Of a DNA stretch of 18,074 bases, positions 2,105 through 17,909 are shown piece after piece (positions within the stretch are counted from its first letter, which is position 1; each line of letters begins with the position of its first letter). The stretch is from an uncultured Opitutia bacterium (GTDB lineage Bacteria > Verrucomicrobiota > Verrucomicrobiia > Opitutales > Coraliomargaritaceae). Location: the NCBI GenBank assembly GCA_937899295.1, contig CALBPO010000395.1, positions 1 through 18,074 of the forward strand. Reading direction: 5' to 3'. Below the pieces are notes generated by a model. That model ran no database searches, was not told the DNA's origin, and saw nothing but the letters and a program-made list of their open reading frames with translations. A program made the translations under genes and the position numbers.

Positions 2105-2154
2105 AGGAACCCCAGTGCTTGTCATTCCAATTTAACGACGCAAATCTTTGCCCA

Positions 2155-3897
2155 ATGAATAAAGCTGATATCGTAGACATCCTTGAAGACATCGCGGTGC
2201 TTCTTGAGCTGAAGGGGGACAACCCGTTTAAGATTCGTGCTTACTCAAGTGGCGCGCGAGTACTGGAAATGATGGAAGAGGATCTTGGCGATGTGATTGC
2301 TGAGGAGCGACTGGACGCGATCAAGGGGATCGGCTCCGCGCTGGTTGATAAGATCAAGACACTTTACGCTACGGGGGAGCTTGAATATTATACCAAGCTG
2401 CGCGAGTCTGTCGCACCTGGGCTGATTGAGATGCTCGAGATACCTGGCCTCGGCGGCAAGAAGGTAAAAAAGCTCCACGATGCGATTGGCGTGGAATCGA
2501 TCGACGCATTACAAGCGGCCTGCGAATCGGGTGAAGTCGAGGCGCTCAAAGGATTTGGTAAAAAATCGGCGGAGAAGATCCTTAGCGGGATAGCCAATCG
2601 CGCGGCCTATGCGAAGCGCCACCATTGGTGGAATGCGCGCGAAGTGGCCGAGCCGATCCTTGAAGGCTTGCGAAGCTTATCACAAGTCGAACGAGCGGAG
2701 GCTGCAGGTAGCCTGCGCCGATTGAGAGAGACGGTGGGAGACTTAGACTTCATCGTGGCCACGGCTGAACCGAAACCAGTCATGGACTGGTTTGTCGAGC
2801 AGGATGCGGTGCAGGAAGTCACGGCGCATGGGGCAACAAAATCTAGCGTCCGCTTCGAGTCTGGTCTGCAGGCCGACCTGCGGGTGGTGCCTGCCGAGCA
2901 GTTTGCCTTTGCGCTCCATCATTTTACGGGGTCAAAAGAGCACAATGTGGCACTGCGGCAACGCGCGCTAGCGCGAGGCTATAGCTTGAGCGAATGGGGC
3001 TTGTCGCAGAAGGGAGAAGAGGGAGATCCGCCAACTGAAATTCCTGACTCAATCACGACGGAGAAGGAACTATTTCAATTTCTTGGGCTTGCAGAAATTC
3101 CACCTGAATTACGAGAGGGGCTGGGTGAGATTGATTCAGCTGAGGCACAGCAGTTGCCGAATTTAGTTAGGCCGGCGGATATTCGCGGGGTGTTTCATAA
3201 TCATACCACAGCTTCAGATGGTCGCGCTACGATCGAAGAGATGGCTGCGGCTGCGGAGGCGCTGGGCTGGGATTATCTCGGCTTAGCGGACCACTCGAAG
3301 GCGAGCTTTCAGGCCAAAGGGCTCGACGATACACGCGTGCTAAAGCAGCTTGAATCGATCCGTGCTTTCAATGAATCGGGCGAGTCACCGGTACACATTT
3401 TTTCGGGGATCGAGTGCGACATCCTGCCTGATGGCTCCCTAGATCTTGAAGATGCGACGCTCAATGCACTGGATTATGCAGTGATGTCGGTCCACTCTAG
3501 CTTCAGCCAGTCGGAAGAGGAGATGACGGCGCGGGTGATCCGTGCGATTGAGCATCCAGCGACAACCATGCTTGGTCATCCGACGGGGCGCATCCTATTG
3601 CGCCGCGAGCCTTACAAGATCGACCTGCAAAAGGTGATCGACGCCGCGATTGCCAATCGCGTGATTATTGAGATCAATGCCAATCCGCATCGCCTCGACA
3701 TGGACTGGCGGCTTTGGCGTCGAGCCGCGGGACGTGGGCTGATGTGTGCAATCAATCCGGATGCCCACAGTATGGAGGGCCTGAGTTACTTTGACGCTGG
3801 GGTGAATATTGCTCGTAAAGGTTGGCTTGAGAAGGAGCAAGTGCTCAACAGTCGCGACTGTATAGGAGTGCAGCATTGGTTTAACCAGCGCAAGTGA
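2155..3897 (+). CDS. polX: DNA polymerase/3'-5' exonuclease PolX (family X polymerase plus PHP domain)
   Basis: Bacterial family X polymerase involved in gap filling during base-excision repair. From ATG 2155 it is 580 residues, matching the usual 570-580. The order is an N-terminal 8-kDa-like helix-hairpin-helix region ([32 protein letters not shown]), then the polymerase palm with GSLRR and GDLDF (D196, D198) and a third aspartate in ADLRVV (D241). The C-terminal PHP nuclease has [10 protein letters not shown] (H348, H350), LADHSK, GIECDI, SVHSSF, GHPTGR, EINANP and NPDAHS, so its metal ligands look complete. An upstream in-frame TTG at 2119 with AAGGA about 10 nt before it would add 12 residues. 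The family N-terminus aligns with [14 protein letters not shown], so 2155 is preferred. The gene starts 50 nt after menE and may share its transcript. Confidence 0.93.
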
Positions 3898-4146
3898 GAG
3901 TTTATAACAGATCCAGACAAGTTACTTTGTAATTATCGAACGAACTAAACAGATGCCTATAATTAAAATATCCAAGGATTCAGGCGAAAGATCCAATGTC
4001 TACACGCGGGGCTAGGTGTATTCTATTTCGCAGATGTTTATCTTCTACTATAGAGCACCCTCAGGTTTGAATACTATTGATCTAAATTTAGCGCAACTAC
4101 TTCAGGAGTTGATGTATTAATTTTTTACCTAATCGAATACCCTCAA
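3898..4146 (+). other. AT-rich intergenic spacer between the core block and the sulfatase locus
   Basis: This 249-nt spacer holds no convincing gene; the longest ATG-initiated reading I noted is about 20 codons from 3953. A TATAAT hexamer lies at 3958-3963, but no good -35 box sits 16-18 nt upstream. A TTGATG at 4109-4114 has only a poor -10 partner. A 5-bp stem (TACAC/GTGTA) near 3999-4018 is too weak to call a terminator. As the longest non-coding gap, and the one preceding the accessory gene run, it is the likeliest promoter region, but no specific site is supported. Confidence 0.5.
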
Positions 4147-5592
4147 ATGTTTATTAAAATAATATACCGTGCATCTCAATTTATTGGCACTTTTGCTACG
4201 GTGTTTTTAACAGCGGTACTTAGCCATGGATCAGATCCCGCATTAGTAGTCGTTGACCCCGAGGAGTATCCTAGCGCCTTGCGAAATCCGCTAAAAGGCT
4301 TTCGTCCTGATATGGGCGGAAGCGTCTCTAAAAGCCGATTTGCGACGCTAGCGCGTCATTATATTAAGTGGAATGATCTAGAGCAGAAGAAGACGGATGA
4401 CTTAGTAGCAAATATCCGGGCCTACAGCGATGGGAAATGGGCGAAGCTTCGTGGCACGGGAGTAAAAATAATTCCTCGGGTCTATTTAGATTGGGATCGA
4501 GAAAGCGGCAATGAATACTGGCCGAGCGATCTAGAATCTGGCGACTACAGCAGCCCTAAATTCAAGCGGCGACTTCTTCGCTTGATCGAGGCGCTTGGCC
4601 AGTGCTGGGATAGTGACCCTAGGGTAGCTTGGGTTCAGATGGGAATCATCGGCTTTTGGGGAGAGCACCATAACCCTCATCCAGATTTAGAAATGCAAAA
4701 ACTATTAGGAACGGCCTTTGAAAAAGCATTTCAGAACAAGCAGGTCCTAGTTCGTCATCCGAATGAGTTCGAGGATTTTGAGTTCGGCGTCTACTGGGAC
4801 TCTTGGGCGCATCAGGAGCAGACTTTCCGGCTAATGCACGGTGCTGGCATTGATCGGCTGAACGCAACTAAAGGTCGCTGGATGACTCACCCTATTGAGG
4901 GCGAGGCAGCCTACAATTGGGGTAATTATAAGGTTCAACCTGGGGATGATCCGAACGACACATTGTCTGATCCGGAGCACCGCGCCTTCTTTATCGATAC
5001 CATCCGTAATTTACACTGTAGCGCATTAGGGTGGATTGCGAATTACGACCAAGATAAGCCAGCAGTCCAAGCCGGAGCCGAGGAGGTGCAGAAAGCGTTT
5101 GGATACCGTTTTGTATTGGAGGAGTTCTCTTTTAGCCCAGTAGTTCGGAACTTGGGTGATCTGAGGATTAAACTGCGGGTTAAAAATACTGGGTCTGCGC
5201 CGTTTTATCAAGACTGGCCTGTTCGTTTGAACCTGCTGGACCCCTTAAGTCATCGCGTTGTTTGGAGCCAAGAAATAGAGAACGTTGACATTCGCACTTG
5301 GTTGCCGGGTGACGATTGGGATGAGAGAGTAGGGCGATACCGCGTCCCAGCTAAAACCTATTCTGTCGATACGACAGTTCCCCTCCCTGGTAATCTCAAG
5401 TTGCCGCGAGGTGAGTATGTCGTGGCGCTGTCGATTCCTGATCCCGAATTAGAGGAACTGGGCCTACGTTTCGCGATCCAGAATTACTTCGAAGGGGATT
5501 TTCATCCGCTAGGTATCGTCGCCTATGGCGTCAACCCGACTGGTCGATTTACCCTTCTGCCTGAGTCATTTGCTGACCCAATGGGAGAGTGA
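4147..5592 (+). CDS. Secreted DUF4832/DUF4874-like protein, putative TIM-barrel glycoside hydrolase
   Basis: 481-residue exported protein; function not established. An N-terminal signal peptide occupies about residues 1-28 (basic start, hydrophobic FIGTFATVFLTAVLS). The mature part opens with NPLKGF (47-52), typical of DUF4832/DUF4874 proteins. The central region reads like a barrel, and the motif IIGFWGEHHN (167-176) matches the family's conserved G-x-W-G-E-x-H. E173 is thus a candidate catalytic acid by analogy with clan GH-A hydrolases. From about residue 317 (GYRFVLEEFSFSP) a beta-sandwich follows, with the LRVKNTGSAPFYQDWPV signature of the DUF4832 C-terminal domain. It heads the sulfatase gene run, 41 nt before the first sulfatase, so action on a sulfated glycan is likely. 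Family-level recognition is fairly secure; enzymatic activity is inferred. Confidence 0.7.
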   Translation: MFIKIIYRASQFIGTFATVFLTAVLSHGSDPALVVVDPEEYPSALRNPLKGFRPDMGGSVSKSRFATLARHYIKWNDLEQKKTDDLVANIRAYSDGKWAKLRGTGVKIIPRVYLDWDRESGNEYWPSDLESGDYSSPKFKRRLLRLIEALGQCWDSDPRVAWVQMGIIGFWGEHHNPHPDLEMQKLLGTAFEKAFQNKQVLVRHPNEFEDFEFGVYWDSWAHQEQTFRLMHGAGIDRLNATKGRWMTHPIEGEAAYNWGNYKVQPGDDPNDTLSDPEHRAFFIDTIRNLHCSALGWIANYDQDKPAVQAGAEEVQKAFGYRFVLEEFSFSPVVRNLGDLRIKLRVKNTGSAPFYQDWPVRLNLLDPLSHRVVWSQEIENVDIRTWLPGDDWDERVGRYRVPAKTYSVDTTVPLPGNLKLPRGEYVVALSIPDPELEELGLRFAIQNYFEGDFHPLGIVAYGVNPTGRFTLLPESFADPMGE

Positions 5593-5633
5593 TGTCTCTG
5601 CGAAGCTTAAATTTTTAATCAGTAGCTAATCGA

Positions 5634-7280
5634 ATGAGAATCGTATCAAATTTATATGACTTCAGTCGCAGCCGCGCGTCTTGCAAGGGCAACTTTAGGG
5701 CGACTGTTGATCAACTGAATGCGATCTTGAGAAGCATCGCGATCTTGCTGCCTGTAATGGGAGCCCCTGCGCTTACGGCAGGCCAAGGCAATACTCCCCC
5801 TAATGTGTTGTTCATCGCGATTGATGACATGAACGACTGGACCTCCTATTTACAGGGGCACCCACAGGCGCGAACTCCAAACCTAGATCGACTCGCAAAA
5901 AACAGTGTTCACTTCACTCAGGCCTATTGCAACGCCCCTAGCTGCAACCCTTCGCGCGCGTCTGTTATGCTTGGTAAACACCCGAACTCTACTGGATTTT
6001 ATAGTAATAAGATTGGCCATACATCGATCGACTTACGTAAATATTATCCAGATAAATTAACCATTCCTCAGTTCTTTAAACAGCATGGCTACAGCACATT
6101 TAGGACTGGTAAAATATATCATTACTGGGGCGATTGGTCGGACATGAAGGTCAAGCAAAAGGACCTATCTTTTGAGGTACATTCGTGGGGTGGAGGAAAG
6201 TCAATCGAGCCATCGACTTACTTATGTGGAATTGATTTTGGCTGGTCCTTCACCAAAAGCGGCAAGCGTTCCTATATGGACTGGGGCGCGATTGATGCCG
6301 CGTCTTCGGAATTTGGTGAATATGGTCGAGCTTCTACTATGATCAAAGAAATCAAGCGCGAGCATTCCAAACCGTTCTTTGCTGCGCTCGGGTTTTATCT
6401 CCCACATTTACCGTGGTACTATCCTCAGGAAATTTTGGACGACCCAGACTTAGCGCATATTCGGGATGTGGCAGACGTGATATTGCCTAAGGTGCTGGCG
6501 GATCCTCCCGGCAGGGATTTACTGGACCTCTCAAATGTGGCAGTAAAGATTGCTGGTGGTGGGCTTCGTCCTCGCTCGCTCGAAGCTTCGAGAACCTACA
6601 AGAACTGGCACGATGCTATTACCGGCGAAGATAAATGGAAAGAAGCGGTGCAAGCCTATCTTGCTAGTATCTATTTCGTAGATCAGCAATTAGGAAGAGT
6701 TCTGGATGCACTTGAGGAAAGTCCGAATGGGCAACATACGATTATCGTAATCTGGAGCGATCACGGTTGGATGCTGGGAGAGAAGGGAGCCTGGCGCAAG
6801 TATCGACCCTGGGAGGATTCGGTGAGAACAAATTTTATAGTCAAGGCTCCTGGGATCGCCGCAGCTGCCATCGAGCAGCCGGTTGAATTGTTGAGTATCT
6901 GGCCAACCTTGACGGACCTTGCAGGGTTACCGATGAAGAACGACCTAGACGCTCGATCGCTCGTACCATTAATGAAAAATCCCGACACACAATGGAACTT
7001 TCCGGTCATCACCGCGCATTTAGATGAGAGTGGTAACGGTGGCTGGCAGTCTATTAGGACGGCGAGGTATCGATATATCAAATACCTGAAGACTGGAGCT
7101 GAAGAGTTGTATGATCATTCGAATGATCCGAATGAGTGGACAAACTTAATTGGTCGTTCACGCTACAGGGCGGTGAGTCAGGAGTTATCTGAATTAGTGC
7201 CCGACACAATGACGGTCTTAGGGAGTTGGGATGCTCCGGACGAAGCGGTCGTTGAACATAATCGACGGGAGCTTCACTGA
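5634..7280 (+). CDS. S1 family sulfatase, iduronate-2-sulfatase-like (sulfatase 1 of 6)
   Basis: Formylglycine-dependent sulfate ester hydrolase of 548 residues. Metal ligands appear in AIDDMND (D64, D65) and WSDHG (D376, H377). The modified cysteine is C104 in CNPSR, and GKIYHYW supplies the usual active-site Lys/His. The C-terminal ELYDHSNDPNEWTNL is characteristic of the iduronate-2-sulfatase-like group (S1_7 type). From ATG 5634 the hydrophobic stretch SIAILLPVMGAPALTAG is preceded by 33 residues, long for a signal peptide. An in-frame TTG at 5727 would give a normal short signal, so the start is uncertain. After the activation motif the sequence runs SVMLGKHP, where most relatives have T/S-G. 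Substrate is inferred only from the neighbours. Confidence 0.9.
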   Translation: MRIVSNLYDFSRSRASCKGNFRATVDQLNAILRSIAILLPVMGAPALTAGQGNTPPNVLFIAIDDMNDWTSYLQGHPQARTPNLDRLAKNSVHFTQAYCNAPSCNPSRASVMLGKHPNSTGFYSNKIGHTSIDLRKYYPDKLTIPQFFKQHGYSTFRTGKIYHYWGDWSDMKVKQKDLSFEVHSWGGGKSIEPSTYLCGIDFGWSFTKSGKRSYMDWGAIDAASSEFGEYGRASTMIKEIKREHSKPFFAALGFYLPHLPWYYPQEILDDPDLAHIRDVADVILPKVLADPPGRDLLDLSNVAVKIAGGGLRPRSLEASRTYKNWHDAITGEDKWKEAVQAYLASIYFVDQQLGRVLDALEESPNGQHTIIVIWSDHGWMLGEKGAWRKYRPWEDSVRTNFIVKAPGIAAAAIEQPVELLSIWPTLTDLAGLPMKNDLDARSLVPLMKNPDTQWNFPVITAHLDESGNGGWQSIRTARYRYIKYLKTGAEELYDHSNDPNEWTNLIGRSRYRAVSQELSELVPDTMTVLGSWDAPDEAVVEHNRRELH

Positions 7281-7379
7281 AGAACCAATCAGCCTAAAGT
7301 TAATAAGCGTGAAGACTAGAGAGAGGGAGATTTATTTTTAAGTTTAGACACATGGAGCCAGAAAATTGCTGAATTAATA

Positions 7380-8798
7380 ATGAAACAAACAAAGAAAATC
7401 AGCCGTCGTATTTTCGTCAGTAAGTCTGCCTCTGCGATCACTGGGATTACTATTTTACCTTCTTATCTCGCGCTCGGTAAGGCCGATGCTCTTGGGAATC
7501 TCCCGCCTAGTAAGCGAATCAACCTCGGCTGTATAGGCATAGGTGGTCGTGGCAAAAAAGTTATCCCTCAGCTCTGCAGTAATGGTGCTGCGAAGCCAAT
7601 CGCCTTTTGCGATGTTGATTTTAAACGCGCCGATAAGGAGGTAATGGATGCCTTCCCTGGAGTGCGCAAGTTTGCGGACTTTCGAGTGATGTTTGATCAA
7701 ATGGGTGACGATATTGATGCCGTCAGTGTCGTCACGCCGGATCATGTACACTACGTGCAAACTATTGAGGCCATGCGGCGCGGGAAGCATGTCTATGTTG
7801 AAAAGCCGCTGACTCACTCTTTCCGAGAAGCTACGCTGCTAATTCAGGCCGAGAAGAGGTATGGCGTGATCACACAAATGGGTAACCAGGGGCACACCTC
7901 GCCCGGCGCCCGACAGTTTAAACAGCTACAGCGAGCGGGTGCACTAGAGGACATTGTCAAAATCGAAGCATATAAGGACCCTTCGCTCTGGTTCATGGAT
8001 GCGGCACAACGCATAAATGAATTTCCTAAAGCAGAGCCGATTCCAAGTTCACTTAACTATGATCTCTGGTGCGGTCCCGCTAAAATGATGCCTTACAGCA
8101 GGCGCTATCATCCCTTTGACTGGCGGGCATTTTACATTTATGGCAACGGTATGCTCGGCGACTGGGGCGCACACATCATCGACTTCGCGCACAATTACTT
8201 AAAGCTTGGACTCCCCACTAAAGTAGAGGCTTTGCGTATGGATGACTATAACAAAGTAATTTTCCCACTTTCTTCGCAGATTCGGATGCAATTTCCGAAG
8301 CGTGGGGCCGGACTGCCAGCCTGTGAAATGCTTTGGCGAGATGGTGCGGATGCAATACCCTCATTGGATCAAAAATACTATAATTCTGATGCATCTGGTG
8401 AATTGGTGCCGCCGCGCTTGGGACGTGCGGGTTCGATTTTACATCGTAAGGCCGGGCAATTTGTAATCCATCGCGGCTCACACGGCAGTGCTTCGAGGCT
8501 ATATCCCAGAGCTAGCATGATGGATTATAAACGAGCGCTCAAAGCACCAAGCGGCGGGCTAGACCATATGCAAAGCTTTATTCAGTCATGTATGGGTAAC
8601 GGGAAAACTTCGTCACCGTTTAGTGTCGGGGGGCCACTGACCCAGTTGCTTATGTTGGGCGTGATTGCTCAGTATCTGAGCGAGGGCTTTAATTTTGATA
8701 GAGGTACGGAACGAATTACGAATAACCCAGTGGCTGATGCTTTGTTAGAGGGGCCCAAGCCTCGCAAGGGCTGGGAGCACTACTATACTGGTGTTTAA
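7380..8798 (+). CDS. Tat-exported Gfo/Idh/MocA family protein
   Basis: 472-residue NAD(P)-binding protein of the glucose-fructose oxidoreductase family. The N-terminus has a twin-arginine signal, SRRIFV at residues 8-13, followed by a weakly hydrophobic stretch, so it should be exported folded with its cofactor. The Rossmann loop is GIGGRG (53-58) and the family EKPL signature lies at 141-144. The C-terminal half includes GDWGAHIIDFAH. Relatives are dehydrogenases or aldose oxidoreductases, but some Tat-exported members use tightly bound NAD to hydrolyse glycosides by a redox mechanism (GH109 and similar families). Its place between two secreted sulfatases suggests a role in the same extracytoplasmic glycan pathway. 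The 99-nt gap upstream is the widest within the run and could hold an internal promoter, though none is recognisable. Fold and export are confident; activity is not. Confidence 0.88.
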   Translation: MKQTKKISRRIFVSKSASAITGITILPSYLALGKADALGNLPPSKRINLGCIGIGGRGKKVIPQLCSNGAAKPIAFCDVDFKRADKEVMDAFPGVRKFADFRVMFDQMGDDIDAVSVVTPDHVHYVQTIEAMRRGKHVYVEKPLTHSFREATLLIQAEKRYGVITQMGNQGHTSPGARQFKQLQRAGALEDIVKIEAYKDPSLWFMDAAQRINEFPKAEPIPSSLNYDLWCGPAKMMPYSRRYHPFDWRAFYIYGNGMLGDWGAHIIDFAHNYLKLGLPTKVEALRMDDYNKVIFPLSSQIRMQFPKRGAGLPACEMLWRDGADAIPSLDQKYYNSDASGELVPPRLGRAGSILHRKAGQFVIHRGSHGSASRLYPRASMMDYKRALKAPSGGLDHMQSFIQSCMGNGKTSSPFSVGGPLTQLLMLGVIAQYLSEGFNFDRGTERITNNPVADALLEGPKPRKGWEHYYTGV

Positions 8799-8833
8799 TT
8801 TACGACTTAGCCTGATTAATATAGCTATTATAT

Positions 8834-10351
8834 ATGAATTTACTCTTTAAATATCTAAGCATACTCGCACTAGCTTCCACACTTGCTACCAGTTTTTTAT
8901 GTGCTCAAGAAGATCGGCCGAACGTATTGTTTATCTCTGTCGATGATTTAAACGATTGGGTCGGGGTCTATGGTGGGCATCCGCAGGCTAAGACCCCGCA
9001 CATAGATCGCTTCGCGCAGCAAGCAATGGTTTTTCGTAATGCCAGTTGCCCAGGGCCAGTTTGTGGACCATCCCGCTCTGCGCTGCTTTCAGGATTTATG
9101 CCATCAACGACGGGTCTCTACGGGAATAGCAATAACATGCTCGACTCAGCGATCGTGCAAAAAAGCGCTACCCTACCAGAATACTTTTCGAAGCATGGTT
9201 ATGTAACAATTTCCAAAGGAAAGATTTTCCACAAGCATTCCACAGAGAATGGCCAAGACCATGGGCACTGGGCATTTGATATTTGGGAGGTGGCGAAAGG
9301 CGGAGGAAAGATCGACCCAGAACGATATTTTTGTAGGGATGAAGGCATCATCAGTGGACGGAAGATTGAAAACCCCAAATTCACAAAGAGTGGTGGATCG
9401 CGTTTGGCGTTTGGGCCACTTCTAGGGGAAAAGGAACAAACTAAAGATTATCGCACGGCAAAGTGGTTTGAAGCGAAGCTCAAAGAAGACTACGAAAAGC
9501 CATTTTTTATGGCGGTAGGGATTTCTAAACCGCACCTCCCATTTTATGCACCTAAGGAGTATTTTGACCTGCACCCTTTGGAATCAGTGATAGTTCCAGA
9601 ATATCGGATGGATGACCTTGATGATATTTTAAACACTCACGGCGAGCCAGCGTTTAAGCCACACCTTGATTTTCAATGGTGCCGAGAATATGGAGTCATG
9701 CAAGACGTGGTTCAAGCCTACTTGGCCACGGTTTCCTATGCGGATGAATGTGTAGGGGTCGTCCTAGATGCCTTAGCAAATAGCCGATACGCTGATAATA
9801 CTATTGTAGTCATATGGGGAGATCACGGATGGCACTTCGGCGAGAAATTGAAGTTCCGTAAGGCCTCGCTATGGCGCGAAGCGACGCAGTTACCGCTGAT
9901 CATTCAAACTCCTAATATGCAAACTGGGCAGGACTGTAGGCGTAATGTGAACCTCATAGACCTTTACCCGACATTGATTGACCTATGCGGTTTACCAGAA
10001 AAAGAACTAGACGGAACAACTATCAGGCCTCTACTAGAGAATCCAAATCTCGCTTGGCCTCCGACTGTAACTACACAGGGTAAAGGCAATCATTCTATAA
10101 TATCTGAGCGGTGGCATTATACTTCGTATGCCAGGGGCTTTGAGGAATTATACGACTTGGAGAATGATCCGATGCAGTGGACGAATCTAATACATTCTGA
10201 CCTTGATAGAGCTGAAGTCGCGATAGCCGAATTAAAGACATACCTACCAGCCTTCGAGGCAGAAGAAATATTAAAGAGTCAAAAAGATGATTCCATCAAA
10301 GAGATGGATCATACGATCAAGACCCGCCGCGATTTACGCTCGCTCAAATAG
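8834..10351 (+). CDS. S1 family sulfatase, iduronate-2-sulfatase-like (sulfatase 2 of 6)
   Basis: Secreted sulfatase of 505 residues with a Sec signal peptide (about residues 1-24, ending near FLCA/Q). SVDDLNDW gives the first metal ligands, C77 in CGPSR is the formylglycine site, GKIFHKH is the active-site Lys/His motif, and WGDHG (D330, H331) the second metal site. ELYDLENDPMQWTNL near the C-terminus and PHLPFYAPKEYFDLHP in the middle place it with the iduronate-2-sulfatase-like (S1_7-type) group. The last 25 or so residues form a charged, lysine/arginine-rich tail outside the usual fold. It starts 35 nt after the Gfo/Idh/MocA gene in an AT-rich leader without a Shine-Dalgarno sequence. The cysteine before the signal cleavage region is not in a proper lipobox, so a lipoprotein is not called. 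Confidence 0.92.
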   Translation: MNLLFKYLSILALASTLATSFLCAQEDRPNVLFISVDDLNDWVGVYGGHPQAKTPHIDRFAQQAMVFRNASCPGPVCGPSRSALLSGFMPSTTGLYGNSNNMLDSAIVQKSATLPEYFSKHGYVTISKGKIFHKHSTENGQDHGHWAFDIWEVAKGGGKIDPERYFCRDEGIISGRKIENPKFTKSGGSRLAFGPLLGEKEQTKDYRTAKWFEAKLKEDYEKPFFMAVGISKPHLPFYAPKEYFDLHPLESVIVPEYRMDDLDDILNTHGEPAFKPHLDFQWCREYGVMQDVVQAYLATVSYADECVGVVLDALANSRYADNTIVVIWGDHGWHFGEKLKFRKASLWREATQLPLIIQTPNMQTGQDCRRNVNLIDLYPTLIDLCGLPEKELDGTTIRPLLENPNLAWPPTVTTQGKGNHSIISERWHYTSYARGFEELYDLENDPMQWTNLIHSDLDRAEVAIAELKTYLPAFEAEEILKSQKDDSIKEMDHTIKTRRDLRSLK

Positions 10352-10360
10352 AAATCCTCA

Positions 10361-11833
10361 ATGCCTTATCTATTTAGAAATACTAGCTATCTCGTGATGG
10401 GCTTAGCGGCAGTGTGCACACTTACGGCGAGACCAATGAATGTCGTCTTCATTGCGATTGATGACCTTAATACCGACCTTGGGTGCTACGGACACGAACA
10501 AGTGCAGACACCTAATATGGACCGTCTAGCAAAGATGGGTGTGCAATTCAATAATGCGTATTGCCAGCAACCGCTTTGTGGGCCGAGTAGGGTCAGTGTC
10601 ATGTCGGGACTTCGCCCTAACACCACTGACTGTTTTAGTCTAGGCGATAATATTCGCAATAAACGGCCTGACACGCTGACCCTCGGCCAGTTTTTCCAAG
10701 ATAAGGGATATTATGTTGGGCGCGTAGGTAAGATCTATCATTATGGGAACCCTAGTCAGATTGGCACTAACGGGAATGATGATAAGTTAAGCTGGCAGGA
10801 GCGCTTTAACCCGCAAGGAATCGACAGCCTGCAAGAGGATGAGATTATTCGCTACCCAGGAGGAAAAAAAGGAAACCCAAATAAGAAAGAGAACTTAGGC
10901 ATCTCAATGGCTTGGTGGGACCCCGTTAGTGAGGATGAAGAACATACCGACGGCATGGTCGCCTCTCGCGCAATCGAAATGATCGAGCGTAACATGGCAG
11001 AACCCTTCTTTGTCGCGGCTGGCTTTTTTAATCCTCATTGTCCGTACGTCGCCCCGAAGAAATATTTCGACCTGCATCCTTTTGAGGCGATTACCATGCC
11101 TGACCTTGCTGAGTCAAAGAAGGACTTAGAAGATGTTCCGCCGATGGCGATCCTGCGAGACTCAGGAAGCAAGTGGCCATTCTACAACGTTTCGAATATT
11201 ACAGTAGATGAAGCCCGTAAATGTAAACAGGCCTATTTTGCCTGTATTTCATTTGTGGATGCCCAGATTGGACGCATCATGGATGCTCTTGAGCGAAATG
11301 ATCTGATGGATGATACGCTGATTGTAGTTTGGTCTGATCATGGATACTTCCTCGGAGAAAAAGGGCTTTGGTATAAGCGTAAAAATTTTGAACGTTCGCT
11401 TCGAGTCCCGCTGATTATCGCCGGCGGTGGAATTAGTGCGCAGACTCAAGCCTGTAGTCAAATTGTCGAACTAGTAGACCTGTATCCAACAATTGTTGAT
11501 CATGCTGGATACGAAGTGCCGCAGGTATTAGAAGGAGAGAGTCTAGTGCCACTACTTAATGACCCACTGGCCGATTGGGATAAGCCAGCGATTTCACAGG
11601 TAATTCATTCGCGAGGTGAAGCATACGGCTTCTCGCTTCGCACGGACCGGTGGCGCTATACAGAGTGGAAAAGGGGCGTAGCAGGTCGCGAGCTATATGA
11701 CCATGCAAACGACCCCGATGAGGTCACTAATTTAGCAGGCTACCCTGAGCATGCGCCGCTAGTTAAGAGACTAAGCGAGCAATTAAAGCCTTATGTTGAT
11801 ACTATGAGTGAGGTCTCAGCCTTGGCAAATTAG
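10361..11833 (+). CDS. S1 family sulfatase, iduronate-2-sulfatase-like (sulfatase 3 of 6)
   Basis: 490-residue sulfatase with a signal peptide (SYLVMGLAAVCTLTA, cleavage near residue 23). Key residues are IDDLN at the first metal site, C73 in CGPSR as the formylglycine precursor, GKIYHYG, and WSDHG (D326, H327). The chain has the classic iduronate-2-sulfatase layout: SGLRPNTTDCF, then FFNPHCPYVAPKKYFDLHP, then FLGEKGLWYKRKNFE, and ELYDHANDPDEVTNL at the end. It begins only 9 nt after the preceding sulfatase stop, so cotranscription is near certain. Of the six it looks closest to the textbook iduronate-2-sulfatase pattern, but bacterial S1_7-type enzymes act on several glycans including algal galactans, so iduronate is not implied. 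Confidence 0.93.
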   Translation: MPYLFRNTSYLVMGLAAVCTLTARPMNVVFIAIDDLNTDLGCYGHEQVQTPNMDRLAKMGVQFNNAYCQQPLCGPSRVSVMSGLRPNTTDCFSLGDNIRNKRPDTLTLGQFFQDKGYYVGRVGKIYHYGNPSQIGTNGNDDKLSWQERFNPQGIDSLQEDEIIRYPGGKKGNPNKKENLGISMAWWDPVSEDEEHTDGMVASRAIEMIERNMAEPFFVAAGFFNPHCPYVAPKKYFDLHPFEAITMPDLAESKKDLEDVPPMAILRDSGSKWPFYNVSNITVDEARKCKQAYFACISFVDAQIGRIMDALERNDLMDDTLIVVWSDHGYFLGEKGLWYKRKNFERSLRVPLIIAGGGISAQTQACSQIVELVDLYPTIVDHAGYEVPQVLEGESLVPLLNDPLADWDKPAISQVIHSRGEAYGFSLRTDRWRYTEWKRGVAGRELYDHANDPDEVTNLAGYPEHAPLVKRLSEQLKPYVDTMSEVSALAN

Positions 11834-11873
11834 GACGGTAAAAGATGAATGATCTCTCATAGAAAAACTCCTT

Positions 11874-13268
11874 ATGAATAGACTATCCATAAATGCGGCA
11901 CTGATGTTTGTCTTATCTGTTCGAGCTCTAACTGCTTCGGCTGCCACAAGCGAGGTGCTGGCGCAGACGCCGCCAATGGGCTGGAACAGTTTCGACTCTT
12001 ATGGCGTATATTTACATGAGAAGGCTGCCTTTGCCAACCTTGAGGCAATGGCAGAAAAGTTACTGCCATATGGTTACGAATACTTCGTCATCGATAATGG
12101 ATGGTTTGGCGAATACACACTTCAAGAAGGCACTATTTTTCCAGCAGAAAAACATGCGCATGATATTCGGATTGATGAATACGGATATTTTCTGCCTTCC
12201 GAAGTTTATTTTCCTAATGGTCTCAAGCCGATTGCCGAAAGGTGTCATGAGCTAGGACTTAAATTTGGAGTACATTTAATGCGAGGAATCCCTCGAAAGG
12301 CGTATCAAATGGATCTTCCCATCAAAGGGACTCGCTATACGGCGCGTGATATAGCGAATACTAACCCAGAGGAGAACTGTAACTGGTGCCACTATTGCTA
12401 CGCGGTGGATATGAGTAAGCCAGGGGCTCAGCAATGGTATGATGGCTTGATCGAACATATTGCCAGTATGGGAGTGGATATGATTAAATACGACGACATC
12501 GTTGCGCACCCAGATGAAGTCGAGGCAGTCGCCAAAGCAATCGCTAAAACAGGTAAGCCGATTTTGTTGAGCCTTTCACCAGGCGGCAAGGTCGACCCCG
12601 AAGCGATCGACTTTTTCAAGATGGGTAACATGCTGCGCGTGACTCCTGATGTTTGGGACGAACAGAAGTATATCGATTTGTGCTTTGATGCTTGGCGCAA
12701 GTGGGAGGGCAAGGAACAGCCTGGGTTTTGGATCGACATGGACATGATACCATTCGGTCAATTACAGCTTATGTCTCCCCCCAGCGCTGATGGTGCAAAG
12801 ACAGTCATGGATAAAGGCGATATCGCTTTAGCGGGCAAAGGAGTGCACCGCAGGTGCCAGCTCAATAGCGACCAGATGGAGACTTTTATTACGATGCGCG
12901 CATTGGCTGCATCGCCTCTTATGATGGGGGGAGACTTACCCACCTTGGATGAGTTTTCGCTGAAGCTCATTACAGACCCCGACATGCTTGCATGTAATCA
13001 AAATGGAGTGATGGGCTCTCTGATTCATGCCAAGGAGAACATTGAAGTGTGGAAGTCAGAAAAAAGGGGTAGTTCAGAAGCTGCATGGGTCGCGGTTTTT
13101 AATCGTAGCGAGGTAGTCAAAACCTTCGTGCTTAGTACAACTAAACTTGGATTAAAAGAGAGTCCATCGATTAGCTTACGTAACATCTGGAAAAAGAGTA
13201 AGCTCGACTTAAATGGACTAGTTAAAATACCCGCGAATGGGGTTATTTTCATCGCTGTGAATCAATGA
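11874..13268 (+). CDS. Secreted GH27 family alpha-galactosidase-like glycoside hydrolase
   Basis: 464-residue exported hydrolase that probably removes terminal alpha-linked galactose (or a related residue) with retention of configuration. A signal peptide ends near ASA at about residue 24. The mature enzyme starts with the clan signature TPPMGWNSFD. The predicted nucleophile is D207 in MIKYDD and the acid/base is D259 in LRVTPDVWDE. FWIDMDMIPFG corresponds to the family's W-N-D-P-D-M region. A C-terminal beta-sandwich (about 385-464) ends with LVKIPANGVIFIAV. A CxxCxxC cluster (C169, C172, C175) sits in a loop before the nucleophile strand. It is the only clearly recognised glycosidase in the run, between sulfatases 3 and 4 with 40- and 34-nt gaps, suggesting that desulfation exposes its substrate. 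Confidence 0.9.
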   Translation: MNRLSINAALMFVLSVRALTASAATSEVLAQTPPMGWNSFDSYGVYLHEKAAFANLEAMAEKLLPYGYEYFVIDNGWFGEYTLQEGTIFPAEKHAHDIRIDEYGYFLPSEVYFPNGLKPIAERCHELGLKFGVHLMRGIPRKAYQMDLPIKGTRYTARDIANTNPEENCNWCHYCYAVDMSKPGAQQWYDGLIEHIASMGVDMIKYDDIVAHPDEVEAVAKAIAKTGKPILLSLSPGGKVDPEAIDFFKMGNMLRVTPDVWDEQKYIDLCFDAWRKWEGKEQPGFWIDMDMIPFGQLQLMSPPSADGAKTVMDKGDIALAGKGVHRRCQLNSDQMETFITMRALAASPLMMGGDLPTLDEFSLKLITDPDMLACNQNGVMGSLIHAKENIEVWKSEKRGSSEAAWVAVFNRSEVVKTFVLSTTKLGLKESPSISLRNIWKKSKLDLNGLVKIPANGVIFIAVNQ

Positions 13269-13302
13269 TAAAAAATACTTTCGAAGCTTTAATTTAAATA
13301 AT

Positions 13303-14757
13303 ATGATAAAATTAGCATATACTTTGAGCTCCACATTGTTACTTGGACTGCTTGCTAGCGCCAAGCCACACACGAACATTGTTTATATTTTAGCCGATGA
13401 CTTGGGTTATGGCGATTTGAGCATTTTAGGGCAGTCACATTTCGAGACGCCTCACATAGATGAGCTCGCACGCAAGGGGATGATTTTCACCGACCACTAT
13501 TCAGGAAGTACAGTCTGTGCGCCCTCCAGGGCCTCACTGCTCACAGGTCTGCATACTGGCCACGCACCAGTTCGTGGGAACTTAGAGTGGCAACCTGAAG
13601 GCCAGTATCCGATGCCGGAGAGTACCTATATTATACCCCAGATGTTAAAGCGTGCGGGATACACCAGTGGTATATTTGGCAAGTGGGGCTTGGGTGCACC
13701 AGAGACTCCAAGTGAACCTCTTAACATGGGCTTTGATCGCTTTTATGGCTATAATTGTCAGCGTATCGCACACCATTACTATCCGTATTTCCTCTGGGAT
13801 GATGATCAGCTTGAGGTTCTTTGGGATAATTTTGGTATGGAGACGGGAACCTATGCGCCCGATTTGATCCATCAAGAAGTGCTTGATTTCATTGAAGCCA
13901 ATCAAGACCAAGCGTTCTTCTGCTATTACGCGATTATTCAGCCACATGCGGAGATGTTCGCTCAAGAGGAGTACATGAATAAATACCGCGGAAAGTTCCT
14001 GCCAGAGAGCTCATACGTAGGGACCGACGACGGCCCTAACTTCCGCAAATTTGCTTACGGATCCCAGCCCGAAGCGCATGCCGCCTTTGCCGCGATGGTA
14101 AATTGTATTGATGACTATGTGGGCGACATCGTCGCGGAGTTGGAAGCCTTGGGAATTGCCGAAGATACCTTGATCATATTTACGTCCGATAATGGACCTC
14201 ACTCTGAAGCGGGCCACAATCCCGAATATTTTAACTCTAATGGCCCGTTCAAAGGAAAGAAACGCGATCTTTACGAGGGAGGCATTCGGGTGCCGATGAT
14301 AGCTAATTGGCCCAGCCAAATTGCTGCAGGTTCTACCACTGGGCATGTCTCAGCCTTCTGGGATGTCTTTCCTACTCTCGCAGAAATCTCTGGTCAGCCA
14401 ATCCCCGAAAATATAGATGGCCTCTCATTTTTACCCACTCTACTTGGGAAGGATGATCAAGCTGTACACGATTACTTGTATTGGGAGTTTCACGAAAAAA
14501 AGGGTAGACAGGCAGTGCGTAAAGGAAACTGGAAAGGCGTACGCTATAAGGTCTCGATCAGTCCAGATTCGCCAATTGAGCTGTATGATTTATCTGCAGA
14601 CTTGGGAGAGACTAAAAATCTCGCCGAGCAATATCCAGAAATTGCCGCAGAGCTTTCTAATCTAATGACAAAGGCGCGGAGTGTGCATCCAGATCCAAAC
14701 TTTAATTTCCCAGATCGACGATACGTTCCGCGCAATACGCTAGGCAGTAAAAAATAA
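13303..14757 (+). CDS. S1 family arylsulfatase A-like sulfatase (sulfatase 4 of 6)
   Basis: 484-residue secreted sulfatase with a short signal peptide (cleavage near SAK, residue 21). Metal ligands are in LADDLGYGD and TSDNGPH (D296, N297); this is the only member here with the Asp-Asn form, the others having Asp-His. C72 in CAPSR is the formylglycine precursor, followed by the canonical RASLLTG. GKWGLG and GYNCQRIAHHYYPYFLW mark a distinct arylsulfatase A-like group common in PVC bacteria and Bacteroidota; the subfamily number cannot be fixed by eye. GPFKGKKRDLYEGGIRVPMI is the expected C-terminal active-site segment. It differs clearly from the four iduronate-2-sulfatase-like paralogues and so likely removes a different sulfate. 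Confidence 0.92.
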   Translation: MIKLAYTLSSTLLLGLLASAKPHTNIVYILADDLGYGDLSILGQSHFETPHIDELARKGMIFTDHYSGSTVCAPSRASLLTGLHTGHAPVRGNLEWQPEGQYPMPESTYIIPQMLKRAGYTSGIFGKWGLGAPETPSEPLNMGFDRFYGYNCQRIAHHYYPYFLWDDDQLEVLWDNFGMETGTYAPDLIHQEVLDFIEANQDQAFFCYYAIIQPHAEMFAQEEYMNKYRGKFLPESSYVGTDDGPNFRKFAYGSQPEAHAAFAAMVNCIDDYVGDIVAELEALGIAEDTLIIFTSDNGPHSEAGHNPEYFNSNGPFKGKKRDLYEGGIRVPMIANWPSQIAAGSTTGHVSAFWDVFPTLAEISGQPIPENIDGLSFLPTLLGKDDQAVHDYLYWEFHEKKGRQAVRKGNWKGVRYKVSISPDSPIELYDLSADLGETKNLAEQYPEIAAELSNLMTKARSVHPDPNFNFPDRRYVPRNTLGSKK

Positions 14758-14769
14758 ATTCCCTATTTA

Positions 14770-16287
14770 ATGAAGTCGGCCGCGCTAGTTCTAATTTTGT
14801 TCAGTTTCTTACTGCCTCTGGCGGCGTCTTCTCCTCGGTCACCCAATATTTTATGGATTGTTGCCGAGGATTTGTCTCCCTTTTTTGGCTGCTATGGGGA
14901 TGCCGTGAATCAGGGACATACGCCGACTGTCGATCGACTTGCCGCTGATGGAGTAATTTTTAAGCGTGCTTACACGGTTTCGCCAGTCTGTTCGTCTAGC
15001 CGGTCCGCCCTAATTACTGGGGTAATGCAGACGACGACTGGGACGCACCAGCATCGCTCTAGCCGTTCGCCTGAAGGGGAGATCGTTCCTGCAGATCTAC
15101 GTATCAAACTTCCTACGGGGATGAAGACAATTCCGGAGCTCATGCGTGCGCAGGGCTACTTTACTTTCAATAGCGGTAAGGACGATTATAACTTTCACTA
15201 TGACCGGCGGGATCTCTATGATGTAGGAACCAAGGCTGACTACGAGGCAGGGATGAATGGCTGGCAGGGGAATCGAGCTGAGCATTGGAAGTCGTATACA
15301 GAAGATGTCTGGGGAGCGCGTGTTGATAAGAGTCGTCCCTGGTTCGGTCAGATACAAATCGATGGAGGAAAGGGCGATCGACGTTATCTCAATGAGGCTG
15401 ATTTTATTGCAAAGGATTCTGTGTCATTGCCTCCTTATTTCCCAAACACTCCAGCCCTTCATCAGGCATGGTCTGTTCATTTCGATAATGCCCGCGGGTC
15501 GGATGTGCGCATTTTTAATATTCTACAACAACTCGAGGCTGATGGCGAAATGGAGAACACCATCATTTTCTTCTTCTCTGACCATGGGCACAATACCTCG
15601 CTTAGGCATAAACAGTTTTGTTACGAAGGAGGGATGCTCGTGCCACTAATTATTAAGGGGAATCATCCCGCGATCTCAGCCGGGCGTGTCGTTAATGATC
15701 TAGTGACCCTTCTGGATGTCGGCGCGACGACCCTAGCACTGGCAGGCGCCGAGCTACCAAATTATCTGGAGGGTCAAAATTTATTTGGATCTGAATACCA
15801 AACCGCGGAGTACGTGCTAGGGGCGCGTGATCGTTGCGACTACACGATCGACCGGATACGTACAGTCCGGTCAGATCGATACCGCTATATTCGAAACTAT
15901 TATTTAGACCGCCCTTTGATGCAGCCGGGCTATCGCGACGATCGCCCTCCGTCGATGGATATGCGGCGCTTGTTTGAAGCCGGAGAACTGACTGAATATC
16001 AAGCAGAACATTGGTTTGGCCTACGCCCTCGGGAAGAACTTTATGACATGGATACAGATCCTCATCAGATCTACAACTTAGCCTCCTTACCTGACTTTCA
16101 GGCTGAGCTGCTTAGGCATCAGGAGGTTTTGGAAAATTGGATCAATGATTCTGATGACCAAGGACAATACTCGGAAAGCGATGTGCAGCTCCGTGCGACC
16201 TACGAGCTCTGGAAAGATCGCGATATTTTTAAGAACGCTGATGTGAACCCCGAATATTCTAAATTCCGCGAAGCAAGCGGTAACTAA
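14770..16287 (+). CDS. S1 family sulfatase, sulfamidase-like, with CSSSR activation motif (sulfatase 5 of 6)
   Basis: 505-residue secreted sulfatase with a signal peptide ending near AASS (about residue 20). The sequence ITGVMQTTTGTHQHRSSR and SGKDDYNF match the heparan N-sulfatase/sulfamidase-like group (S1_8-type). The putative formylglycine cysteine is C74 in CSSSR, where serine replaces the proline of the CxPxR consensus; the codons at 14989-15003 read TGT TCG TCT AGC CGG. The first metal motif is VAEDLS, Glu-Asp rather than Asp-Asp, and the second is FSDHG (D271, H272). The rest, including QIQIDGG, YEGGMLVPLII and ELYDMDTDPHQIYNL, looks intact, so an active enzyme is more likely than a decayed one. 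It starts 12 nt after the preceding stop. Whether it cuts sulfamide or O-sulfate cannot be told. Confidence 0.9.
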   Translation: MKSAALVLILFSFLLPLAASSPRSPNILWIVAEDLSPFFGCYGDAVNQGHTPTVDRLAADGVIFKRAYTVSPVCSSSRSALITGVMQTTTGTHQHRSSRSPEGEIVPADLRIKLPTGMKTIPELMRAQGYFTFNSGKDDYNFHYDRRDLYDVGTKADYEAGMNGWQGNRAEHWKSYTEDVWGARVDKSRPWFGQIQIDGGKGDRRYLNEADFIAKDSVSLPPYFPNTPALHQAWSVHFDNARGSDVRIFNILQQLEADGEMENTIIFFFSDHGHNTSLRHKQFCYEGGMLVPLIIKGNHPAISAGRVVNDLVTLLDVGATTLALAGAELPNYLEGQNLFGSEYQTAEYVLGARDRCDYTIDRIRTVRSDRYRYIRNYYLDRPLMQPGYRDDRPPSMDMRRLFEAGELTEYQAEHWFGLRPREELYDMDTDPHQIYNLASLPDFQAELLRHQEVLENWINDSDDQGQYSESDVQLRATYELWKDRDIFKNADVNPEYSKFREASGN

Positions 16288-16298
16288 ACTACAAAAAT

Positions 16299-17909
16299 AT
16301 GATGAACTATAAGTCTTATTTTCTCAGCGGACTTGTCCTTACCCAATTTATTTCAGTTGGGGTGCTGCAGGCCGCATTGCCAGACCTATCAAAAATGAAC
16401 ATCTTGTTTCTATGCCCCGAAGATTGGTCTGCAGCAGCCATAGGGGCCTATGGAAACGAACAAGTGAAAACGCCGAACTTAGACGAATTTGCCAAAACAG
16501 GAACTTTGTTTACGAAGGCTTATTGTCAAAATCCGGTATGCAACCCTTCGCGTAGCTCATTTAACACGGGATTACGCTCGGATACGACGAGGGTTTTTAG
16601 CAACGCCGATAAGTTCCAAGAGGTTATACCCAATTGGGCGACCACAATTGGTGAGACTTTAAAAAGTCATCCTATTAAGACTTATATGATAGGAAAGTTG
16701 TTTCACCATAACTGGGATGCAATCGTGCAGTCATCGGCATACGATGGGATGTTAAAATACGGGAAACAAGAAGGTTATAAGGGTAGGGTGGTTGAATATA
16801 GCATCCCCAAGGGCACTCCCCCTAATCCTCCCAAGACTTGGACTTATACGTCTGACCTGGACTGGGACGCAAAGATGATTGAGGCGATGAAGGTTCGAAA
16901 AGAGCTCTGGGCCAATGCGGTTAAAGGCTCCGAGCAGTGGGAAGAAGGGCGAAGTGTATTCCAAAGTCTATCTGCTGAGCTAATCGGCGATAGTGGAGAC
17001 ATCGAAGAGCGTAATCCTGATGGAGTGAAGGCCCGAGTGGTTGCTAATCTGATTCGCGAGCACGCTGAAAGTGGCGAGCAGTTTTTCATCACCTATGGAA
17101 GCAGTCGACCCCACACGCCGCTGATCGCACCTAAGAAGTACTTCGATCTTTACGACCCTAGTATTCTAGAACTGACCAAGGCTAAAAAGGACCTAGATGA
17201 AAATATTCCGGCGGTTGCCAAGCGCCATGGGCGCAACTGGGATATTTTTAAAATACGTGAAGAAACTCCCGAACAAGCCCAAGCTGCGATCCATGCCTAT
17301 TACGCCTGTGCGAGTTTTATTGATGACCAAATTGGATTGATGCTAGAAGCTCTGGAAGAGTCGGGGCAGGCAGACAACACGATAGTTATCCTTACCTCAG
17401 ACCATGGCTTTCATCTCGGCGAGCACGGCATGTGGAGCAAGATTAGTCTTTTTGAGCAAGCGACACGAGTGCCCATGATCGTCAGGATTCCGGGCGTCAC
17501 CGATGGCGCGACCTGTGGAGAAATCGTCGAATTAGTCGATCTATATCCGACCTTGTGTGATATGGTGGGGCTTGATTTGCCGCACGAAAAGTTAGAGGGC
17601 ATCTCCTTTCTTCCCTTGGTTGAAACTCCAGACTTAGCTTGGAAAAAAGCAGCATTCATACTTTGCCGACAGGGCAAGCATCTTGGTAGATCGATTCGAA
17701 CAAAGTCGCACCGCTACACCGAGTGGATTGACTACGCAGATCGCGATGATGACCATGCAATCGTTCGATTCACTGAGCTGTATCACTTAGATCTTGATGA
17801 GTTGGAGCAAGTCAACTTGGCGAACCGTATCGAATATGCGCCGAAACGAAGGGAACTAGCTGAATTGCTTAGTGAGGGATGGGAATCTGCACTTCCCCCC
17901 GTCAATTAA
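16299..17909 (+). CDS. S1 family sulfatase, iduronate-2-sulfatase-like (sulfatase 6 of 6)
   Basis: 536-residue secreted sulfatase. A signal peptide covers about residues 1-27 (SGLVLTQFISVGVLQA). C81 in CNPSR is the formylglycine precursor, GKLFHHN the active-site Lys/His motif, and TSDHG (D368, H369) the second metal site. The first metal motif reads CPEDW, with glutamate in place of the first aspartate. PHTPLIAPKKYFDLYDP and HLGEHGMWSKISLFEQATRVP place it in the iduronate-2-sulfatase-like (S1_7-type) group. It is longer than sulfatases 2 and 3 because of an insertion of roughly 60 residues around 165-230 (KTWTYTSDLDWDAKM through SLSAELIGDSG). It starts 11 nt after sulfatase 5 at a double ATG (16299 and 16302) and closes the gene run. 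Confidence 0.92.
   Translation: MMNYKSYFLSGLVLTQFISVGVLQAALPDLSKMNILFLCPEDWSAAAIGAYGNEQVKTPNLDEFAKTGTLFTKAYCQNPVCNPSRSSFNTGLRSDTTRVFSNADKFQEVIPNWATTIGETLKSHPIKTYMIGKLFHHNWDAIVQSSAYDGMLKYGKQEGYKGRVVEYSIPKGTPPNPPKTWTYTSDLDWDAKMIEAMKVRKELWANAVKGSEQWEEGRSVFQSLSAELIGDSGDIEERNPDGVKARVVANLIREHAESGEQFFITYGSSRPHTPLIAPKKYFDLYDPSILELTKAKKDLDENIPAVAKRHGRNWDIFKIREETPEQAQAAIHAYYACASFIDDQIGLMLEALEESGQADNTIVILTSDHGFHLGEHGMWSKISLFEQATRVPMIVRIPGVTDGATCGEIVELVDLYPTLCDMVGLDLPHEKLEGISFLPLVETPDLAWKKAAFILCRQGKHLGRSIRTKSHRYTEWIDYADRDDDHAIVRFTELYHLDLDELEQVNLANRIEYAPKRRELAELLSEGWESALPPVN

Follow-up and report, generated by a model that had tools for sequence, protein, structure and literature searches.

Nine consecutive genes on one strand of an 18,074-base contig (CALBPO010000395.1) from the draft genome of an uncultured Opitutia bacterium appear to form a pathway for breaking down a sulfated, galactose-containing glycan. 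We hold with moderate confidence that their products would act in exo fashion to remove sulfate and sugar from a glycan whose alpha-linked D-galactose is sulfated at O2 and/or O3, and that the contig end has cut off the rear of what is a catabolic locus of about 13 genes in a marine Puniceicoccaceae bacterium; 'sulfated galactan' is a plausible name for the substrate. The window analysed here is the entire contig. The nine open reading frames (ORFs) occupy positions 4147-17909 with intergenic gaps of 41, 99, 35, 9, 40, 34, 12 and 11 nt, and 249 nt separate the first of them from its upstream neighbour. Pfam assigns six proteins to Sulfatase (PF00884), named here SulfA to SulfF in gene order, and one each to a glycoside hydrolase (GH) family 27-type melibiase, GFO_IDH_MocA and DUF4832 (Table 1). 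The ORF coordinates, Pfam matches and formylglycine motifs bear out a first-pass annotation of this DNA, which had described nine same-strand genes with 9-99 nt gaps, six of them S1 sulfatases. Its claim of export signals on all nine holds for the Gfo/Idh protein, whose N-terminus MKQTKKISRRIFVSK is a twin-arginine (Tat) motif, and for seven others with short hydrophobic N-termini; in SulfA the hydrophobic stretch begins only about 30 residues from the N-terminus (all read by eye). The nine enzymes are probably exported, and we infer that the genes are co-transcribed.

The run is confirmed as real by its conservation. Two separately assembled Puniceicoccaceae genomes, G006 and G009, carry all nine genes in the same order, at 89-97% identity in locus L031 of the former and 74-93% in locus L033 of the latter, and because gene order is kept in both, chance or misassembly is ruled out. 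G006 is assigned to the genus of the source genome. Locus L032 retains five genes, all that its contig has room for, and L039 retains six of the nine, with the Gfo/Idh, SulfB and SulfC genes missing at that place. A search at E<=1e-20 detected the GH27 gene in 15 of 134 genomes, counting the source genome, and the distribution of the locus is therefore patchy. The source genome comprises 415 contigs and 1.69 Mb, is 83% complete and has 34 PF00884 matches, six of which lie within the window. Its closest named records are the Puniceicoccaceae genomes AG-913-J04, ALOHA_ZT_54 and AG-457-L13; those with AG names are single-cell genomes.

Table 1. Genes of the window, and members of a PhoD-like family found in related loci (coordinates of the latter refer to the locus named).
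Feature	Coordinates	Strand	Evidence
DUF4832 protein, candidate glycoside hydrolase of clan GH-A type, with Glu173 and Glu253	4147..5592	+	PF16116 56.5 bits; AlphaFold2 pLDDT 80.8
SulfA, S1_7-like sulfatase, CNPSR at 104	5634..7280	+	PF00884; best solved match 6hhm
Gfo/Idh/MocA protein, Tat-type	7380..8798	+	PF01408; NF058561 302.7 bits; best solved match 8tdf
SulfB, S1_7-like sulfatase, CGPSR at 77	8834..10351	+	PF00884; best solved match 6hhm
SulfC, S1_7-like sulfatase, CGPSR at 73	10361..11833	+	PF00884; 6hhm E 4.4e-76
GH27, uncharacterised clade; Asn75 specificity residue; predicted catalytic Asp207, Asp259 (alignment)	11874..13268	+	best solved matches 4nx0, 3cc1
SulfD, S1_20-like sulfatase (galactose-3-sulfate type), CAPSR at 72	13303..14757	+	7ana 364.5, 7an1 349.6 bits
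SulfE, S1_8-like sulfatase (galactose-2-sulfate type), CSSSR at 74	14770..16287	+	9bbd S1_8B, E 7.5e-115, 387.8 bits
SulfF, S1_7-like sulfatase, CNPSR at 81	16299..17909	+	PF00884; best solved match 6hhm
Prepilin-like ORF start (N-methylation motif), truncated at contig end	18008..18074	+	counterpart in L031
PhoD-like family member, L033	17959-19872		
PhoD-like family member, L034	11007-12947		
PhoD-like family member, L036	3295-5205		
PhoD-like family member, L039	19604-21359		
PhoD-like family member, L031	20428-21392		by BLAST
PhoD-like family members, L040, L046, L050, L069			

The sulfatases provide the first pointer to the substrate. All six keep the formylglycine motif, in the form CxPSR in five and CSSSR in SulfE, and each was provisionally placed in a subfamily by its best solved match. 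SulfD is closer to S1_20 enzymes than to other subfamilies, with its two top matches, 7ana (which we take to be BT1622) and 7an1 (BT1636), well separated in score from the next, an S1_16 at 211.2 bits. Its residues H157, E302 and R321 are invariant in all 13 sequences compared and may correspond to the BT1636 residues that recognise galactose, a His for the axial O4 and a Glu/Arg pair for O2. SulfE is closer to the characterised S1_8 enzymes than to any other subfamily, its score against S1_8B being followed by S1_8A at 244.8 bits, S1_8C at 133.6 and the next non-S1_8 enzyme at 91.7. The remaining four all have 6hhm as their top solved match, by modest margins over other subfamilies that are smallest for SulfA (154.8 versus 139.8 bits); human IDS presumably also belongs to S1_7. 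Papers are cited here by PubMed Central (PMC) identifier, and what we draw from them comes from excerpts of their text. The 7an1 sequence is identical to 9THU, named BT1636 (PMC13383068), which is an S1_20 galactose-3-sulfatase (PMC10154612); S1_8B is a 2-O-sulfatase acting on galactose-2-sulfate in the lambda-carrageenan cascade (PMC12549532); and 6hhm is P18_S1_7, a ulvan xylose-2-sulfatase, ulvan xylose-2-sulfate being a target of both S1_7 and S1_8 (PMC9096561). S1_8 enzymes are also at work in the breakdown of heparin and arabinogalactan-protein. Because S1_7 and S1_8 are polyspecific in this way, the combination of S1_20 with S1_8 is the most informative part of the set, and by their closest relatives SulfD and SulfE together suggest a terminal galactose bearing 2- and 3-sulfates.

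An alternative substrate is a lambda-like carrageenan, with the S1_8 enzyme removing the 2-sulfate and GH27 and GH31 standing in for the GH110 of the Pseudoalteromonas pathway. It finds a footing in SulfE, whose nearest relative is the S1_8B of the lambda-carrageenan pathway, and in the S1_7 enzyme cgsB, which acts on the galactose-4-sulfate of kappa-carrageenan. The lambda form, however, bears 2- and 2,6-sulfates (PMC12549532), which leaves no role for the O3-type SulfD, and S1_15, the 6-sulfate subfamily, is the best match for none of the six sulfatases. Neither GH110 nor GH2 is among the nine genes, nor is a GH16, GH82 or GH150 carrageenase; a genome-wide search, which among these carrageenase families covered GH16 only, did not find that family in the 83%-complete source genome, yet it is present in seven of the nine genomes searched. 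We consider carrageenan improbable. The first-pass annotation had named this polymer, an assignment not supported in view of these results and the fit of S1_7 and S1_8 to other polymers, whereas its broader proposal of an exo-acting desulfation module for a galactose-containing sulfated glycan is supported by the SulfE-S1_8B and SulfD-S1_20 matches and by the GH31 genes of related loci.

We assessed the GH27 enzyme by its closest structures, its specificity residue and a tree. The best solved matches are 4nx0 (Abp, a beta-L-arabinopyranosidase; E 9.3e-73) and 3cc1, and the catalytic segments KYDD and PDVWD align between the window protein and 4nx0. At the key position of the family, alpha-galactosidases have Asp and arabinopyranosidases have Ile, Glu or Tyr (PMC4598101, PMC5853685); the window enzyme has Asn75. 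In a tree of 87 GH27 sequences, all scoring above 80 bits against the window GH27 and drawn from loci other than L038, L089 and L090, a window-side set is split from the others, Abp among them, with 100% support in the SH-like approximate likelihood ratio test (SH-aLRT). The same sequences formed the residue survey. Position 75 in the 45 window-side sequences is Ala in 21, Asn in 20, and Ser, Ile, X and a gap in one each, which gives a small residue (Ala, Asn or Ser) in 42 of the 43 that are readable; the 42 others, Abp included, have Tyr (22), His (13), Phe (4), Ile (2) or Leu (1). Asp occupies the C6-pocket position in none of the 87. By these measures the window GH27 is a member of a distinct, uncharacterised clade beside the beta-L-arabinopyranosidases, one that spans Verrucomicrobiota, Kiritimatiellota, Lentisphaerota, Planctomycetota and Bacteroidota. 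Two group assignments were rejected on the marker residue: a plain alpha-galactosidase, for which the marker Asp is absent, and a Group VI arabinopyranosidase, for which the residue should be Ile, seen in one of the 45 window-side sequences. The first-pass annotation had proposed alpha-galactose release by GH27; the family assignment holds, but the enzyme is not a standard alpha-galactosidase. A small residue at position 75 would leave space for C6, and therefore galactose or 6-substituted galactose would be favoured over arabinose.

The relationship to Abp raises the alternative that the GH27 is itself a beta-L-arabinopyranosidase and the locus serves sulfated beta-L-arabinopyranose polymers, such as the arabinans or arabinogalactans of green algae. 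Both best solved matches, Abp and its neighbour 3cc1, point that way, and an S1_8 enzyme acts on sulfated arabinogalactan of Codium (PMC8406133). We nevertheless find this reading very unlikely, since Asn replaces the marker Ile, Glu or Tyr in a clade that almost uniformly has a small residue there, and L-arabinose isomerase, detected in one of nine genomes, was not found in the source genome or in six other searched genomes of its family.

Gene neighbourhoods tie the GH27 clade to sulfatases. In L038, from a planctomycete metagenome-assembled genome (MAG), positions 8558-11350 hold a single 930-residue ORF in which Pfam finds both a SulfD relative (residues 28-482, 69% identical to SulfD) and a GH27 relative (residues 482-926, 70% identical to the window GH27), the latter half without a signal peptide of its own as read by eye. 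Since the two are fused, a SulfD-like sulfatase and GH27 probably work successively on the same residue, and we regard this sequence as the clearest individual indication that GH27 and the S1_20-like sulfatase may have a common substrate. Among 44 window-side GH27 loci, one or more S1 genes are present in 33, an S1_20-like gene in 16 and a GH31 gene in 14; the S1_20-like gene lies within two genes of GH27 on the same strand in 12, the L038 fusion not counted. The 36 other GH27 loci have an S1 gene in 15, an S1_20-like gene in seven (all within two genes on the same strand) and GH31 in none. These loci differ in length and were all drawn by one GH27 query, so they do not count as independent, and many of the 36 come from rumen Lentisphaeria that are nearly identical to one another. 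L038, its GH27 being fused, was scored as lacking one, with L089 and L090 likewise giving no GH27 call. The GH31 link is specific to the window-side clade; the S1_20 link is not. Beside bulky-residue GH27s, the S1_20-like genes occur in L093, L096, L099, L100, L101, L104 and L110, a group that suggests a separate sulfated substrate.

GH31 itself appears just beyond the point where the contig ends. In L031, SulfF is followed by a prepilin-like gene, then by GH31, a sodium:solute symporter (SSF) and a PhoD-like gene. The GH31 is closest to solved GH31 alpha-galactosidases (E 1.6e-156), and the fourth downstream gene shares 87% identity across 301 residues with the L033 PhoD-like protein, the PhoD Pfam match being weak in L033 and exceeding its cut-off only in L039. 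A transporter and an extra glycosidase thus probably adjoin the window's run just past the contig end. The first-pass annotation was right that the window holds no transporter; its suggestion that the missing parts lie elsewhere in the genome gives way to a probable contig-end effect, because the symporter follows GH31 in L031.

The two remaining proteins add further predicted chemistry. The DUF4832 protein, whose Pfam match is over the cut-off, is modelled as a TIM barrel with a C-terminal beta-sandwich. The barrel resembles GH14, GH42 and GH5 enzymes in fold matches, a likeness that VIA and Foldseek show to be general to TIM-barrel hydrolases and tied to no single family; a family missing from those matches is not thereby ruled out. 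E173 and E253 are invariant in all 13 DUF4832 sequences and placed as in clan GH-A, and the layout of a TIM barrel followed by a DUF4832 beta-domain is that of the Streptococcus protein SIR_1591, reported as a glycoside hydrolase. The protein, which had been named only as DUF4832-like, is itself likely a glycoside hydrolase, and a candidate for a clan GH-A-like one. The Gfo/Idh protein scores below the 750-bit cut-off of NF058561, the model of BT_2158-family glycoside 3-dehydrogenases, and by sequence would be a distant relative of these enzymes. A full oxidative 3-keto route was set aside as weak, given this sub-threshold score and the inconsistent presence of DUF1080. In the source genome DUF1080 sits on other contigs (C344 and C140), and it was not found in G006 or G009, though L031 and L033 carry the same Gfo/Idh gene. 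L039 has a DUF1080-ThuA gene just upstream of DUF4832, but its Gfo/Idh is only 25% identical; there, positions 1378-5963 upstream of the DUF4832 operon encode sugar-isomerase-like, DUF1080-ThuA, ThuA and Gfo/Idh proteins and resemble a 3-keto-sugar pathway.

Taken as a pathway, the substrates and order of steps that we infer would run as follows. Exported sulfatases would strip sulfate from the non-reducing end of oligosaccharides, with SulfE taking the O2 sulfate, SulfD the O3 sulfate, and the four S1_7-like enzymes sulfates at positions that sequence cannot reveal. GH27, together with the GH31 beyond the window, would then release the exposed alpha-galactosyl residue, while the DUF4832 protein would probably cut a different, likely beta-type linkage. 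The freed sugar may be imported by the sodium:solute symporter and used by a galactokinase-type route, and the Gfo/Idh protein probably has an accessory role, oxidising a sugar at C3. Seven of nine genomes, the source genome among them, have a galactokinase-type domain.

Several observations weigh against this reading. The Asp that marks known alpha-galactosidases is missing from the GH27, and the S1_7 and S1_8 subfamilies are polyspecific. The sulfatase-GH27 fusion was seen on one MAG contig and could reflect a lost stop codon, and since S1_20-like genes also adjoin bulky-residue GH27s in seven of 36 loci, the pairing alone is no pointer to galactose. No GH31 was found in the fragmented source genome, where the sole match was the GH27 itself. 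The galactokinase-type domain is common and so not specific evidence. As for sulfatase maturation, the 83%-complete source genome yielded neither a radical-SAM maturase (over cut-off in two of nine genomes) nor a formylglycine-generating enzyme (FGE)-type protein (over cut-off in the eight others, strongly at E under 1e-70 in six, with no more than a weak match in G009 and G020); gaps in the assembly would explain both absences most simply. Finally, GH29 genes in the source genome keep fucose-rich glycans in play.

That last point bears on a further alternative, a fucose-containing sulfated polysaccharide (FCSP), either a galactofucan or a diatom FCSP, whose galactose side groups the locus would handle. 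Marine Puniceicoccaceae are reported to consume sulfated methyl pentoses, and S1_7 and S1_8 genes and, in other contexts, GH31 genes adjoin fucosidases (PMC8857213). GH29-type matches occur in eight of nine genomes, the source genome included, and in four Bacteroidota loci a GH29 gene stands close to GH31-GH27, as identified by Pfam in L049 and L053 and through clustering in L065 and L070. No fucosidase, however, is present among the nine genes or the next four of L031, and the L-fucose isomerase model reaches only a sub-threshold score in the source genome. We judge this alternative unlikely. We are similarly doubtful of a more far-reaching version of the alpha-galactose reading, in which the GH27 clade, with Asn or Ala in its C6 pocket, would accept alpha-galactose that is still substituted at C6, for instance with sulfate, since the Asp normally found in the pocket is absent, and the DUF4832 GH-A-type hydrolase would supply the beta-cleavage, giving an undescribed pathway for the catabolism of an open-ocean 2,3-sulfated alpha-galactan. 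If true, it would imply two new enzyme specificities, in the GH27 clade and in the DUF4832 hydrolase.

The general type of system is known, and the enzyme combination is unusual; no description of it was found in excerpts of the open-licence PMC literature. The lambda-carrageenan polysaccharide utilization locus (PUL) of Pseudoalteromonas distincta U2A is alike in its exo cascade of S1 sulfatases alternating with galactosidases and contains the S1_8 2-O-sulfatase that is SulfE's best match (PMC12549532). That PUL has a GH150 endo-enzyme, GH110 and GH2 galactosidases and S1_15 6-O-sulfatases (PMC12549532), whereas the locus here combines GH27, GH31 (in relatives), an S1_20-like and four S1_7-like sulfatases, DUF4832 and Gfo/Idh, with no GH150 or GH110 among the nine. 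Verrucomicrobiota loci in diatom-bloom MAGs (PMC8857213) are also similar, being from Puniceicoccaceae, without SusCD, and composed of sulfatases, glycoside hydrolases and a symporter, with S1_7, S1_8 and some GH31. Their core enzymes are GH29/GH95 fucosidases or GH78/GH106 rhamnosidases, unlike those of the fucosidase-free window locus, and the main text does not mention GH27 (PMC8857213). The closest solved relatives of the window GH27 are in Group VI of the family (GsAbp, Bh1870, CpArap27; PMC4598101), with which it has SLSPG and KxDD segments in common and from which it differs in Asn for Ile at the specificity residue and in lying across the 100% SH-aLRT branch from Abp.

In seven Bacteroidota loci (L044, L049, L053, L065, L069, L070 and L074), GH31 adjoins a GH27 of the same clade and S1 sulfatases are present. 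All seven GH27s have Ala at the specificity position, where the window has Asn. The order is regulator, SusC, SusD, a small SusE-like gene, GH31, GH27 and then S1 genes, which follow GH27 directly in six loci and after an intervening GH3 gene in L070. Unlike the window, these loci carry a regulator of two-component type along with SusC/SusD, identified through Pfam in L044 and L049 and through clustering elsewhere, and have no S1_20-like gene beside GH27, though L069 and L074 have one on the opposite strand. Four of the seven carry GH29.

Research on marine carbon cycling has yet to settle which sulfated glycans marine Verrucomicrobiota consume. The locus offers a small, ordered and conserved enzyme set that predicts 2-O- and 3-O-desulfation of galactose followed by GH27 and GH31, and it points to a multi-phylum uncharacterised GH27 clade, a natural sulfatase-GH27 fusion and a likely DUF4832 hydrolase. 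If the prediction is right, the enzymes could be used to probe for a polymer of sulfated galactose overlooked by current annotation.

Scans for regulatory signals were uninformative, with 14 promoter-like sites in the window against 21.3 in shuffled sequences and 16 terminator-like sites against 12.0. Upstream of the run lie genes for an enolase-C-like protein (3-887), an AMP-binding protein (872-2104) and a PolX-type DNA polymerase (2119-3897), the first two ORFs overlapping; the enolase-C-like and AMP-binding genes resemble the menaquinone genes menC and menE. Prepilin-like genes with an N-methylation motif shift in place between loci, standing after SulfF in L031 (16137-16862) and before GH27 in L039 (9223-9972). 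The family of about 633 residues, some of whose members match PhoD weakly in Pfam, lies beside the GH27/S1 genes in eight of 44 loci. Weakly GH28-like or beta-helix proteins of about 550-616 residues are encoded near the GH27 loci of L034 (12934-14586), L044 (18857-20695) and L049 (14747-16597), and those of L044 and L049 bear a secretion-system sorting tail.

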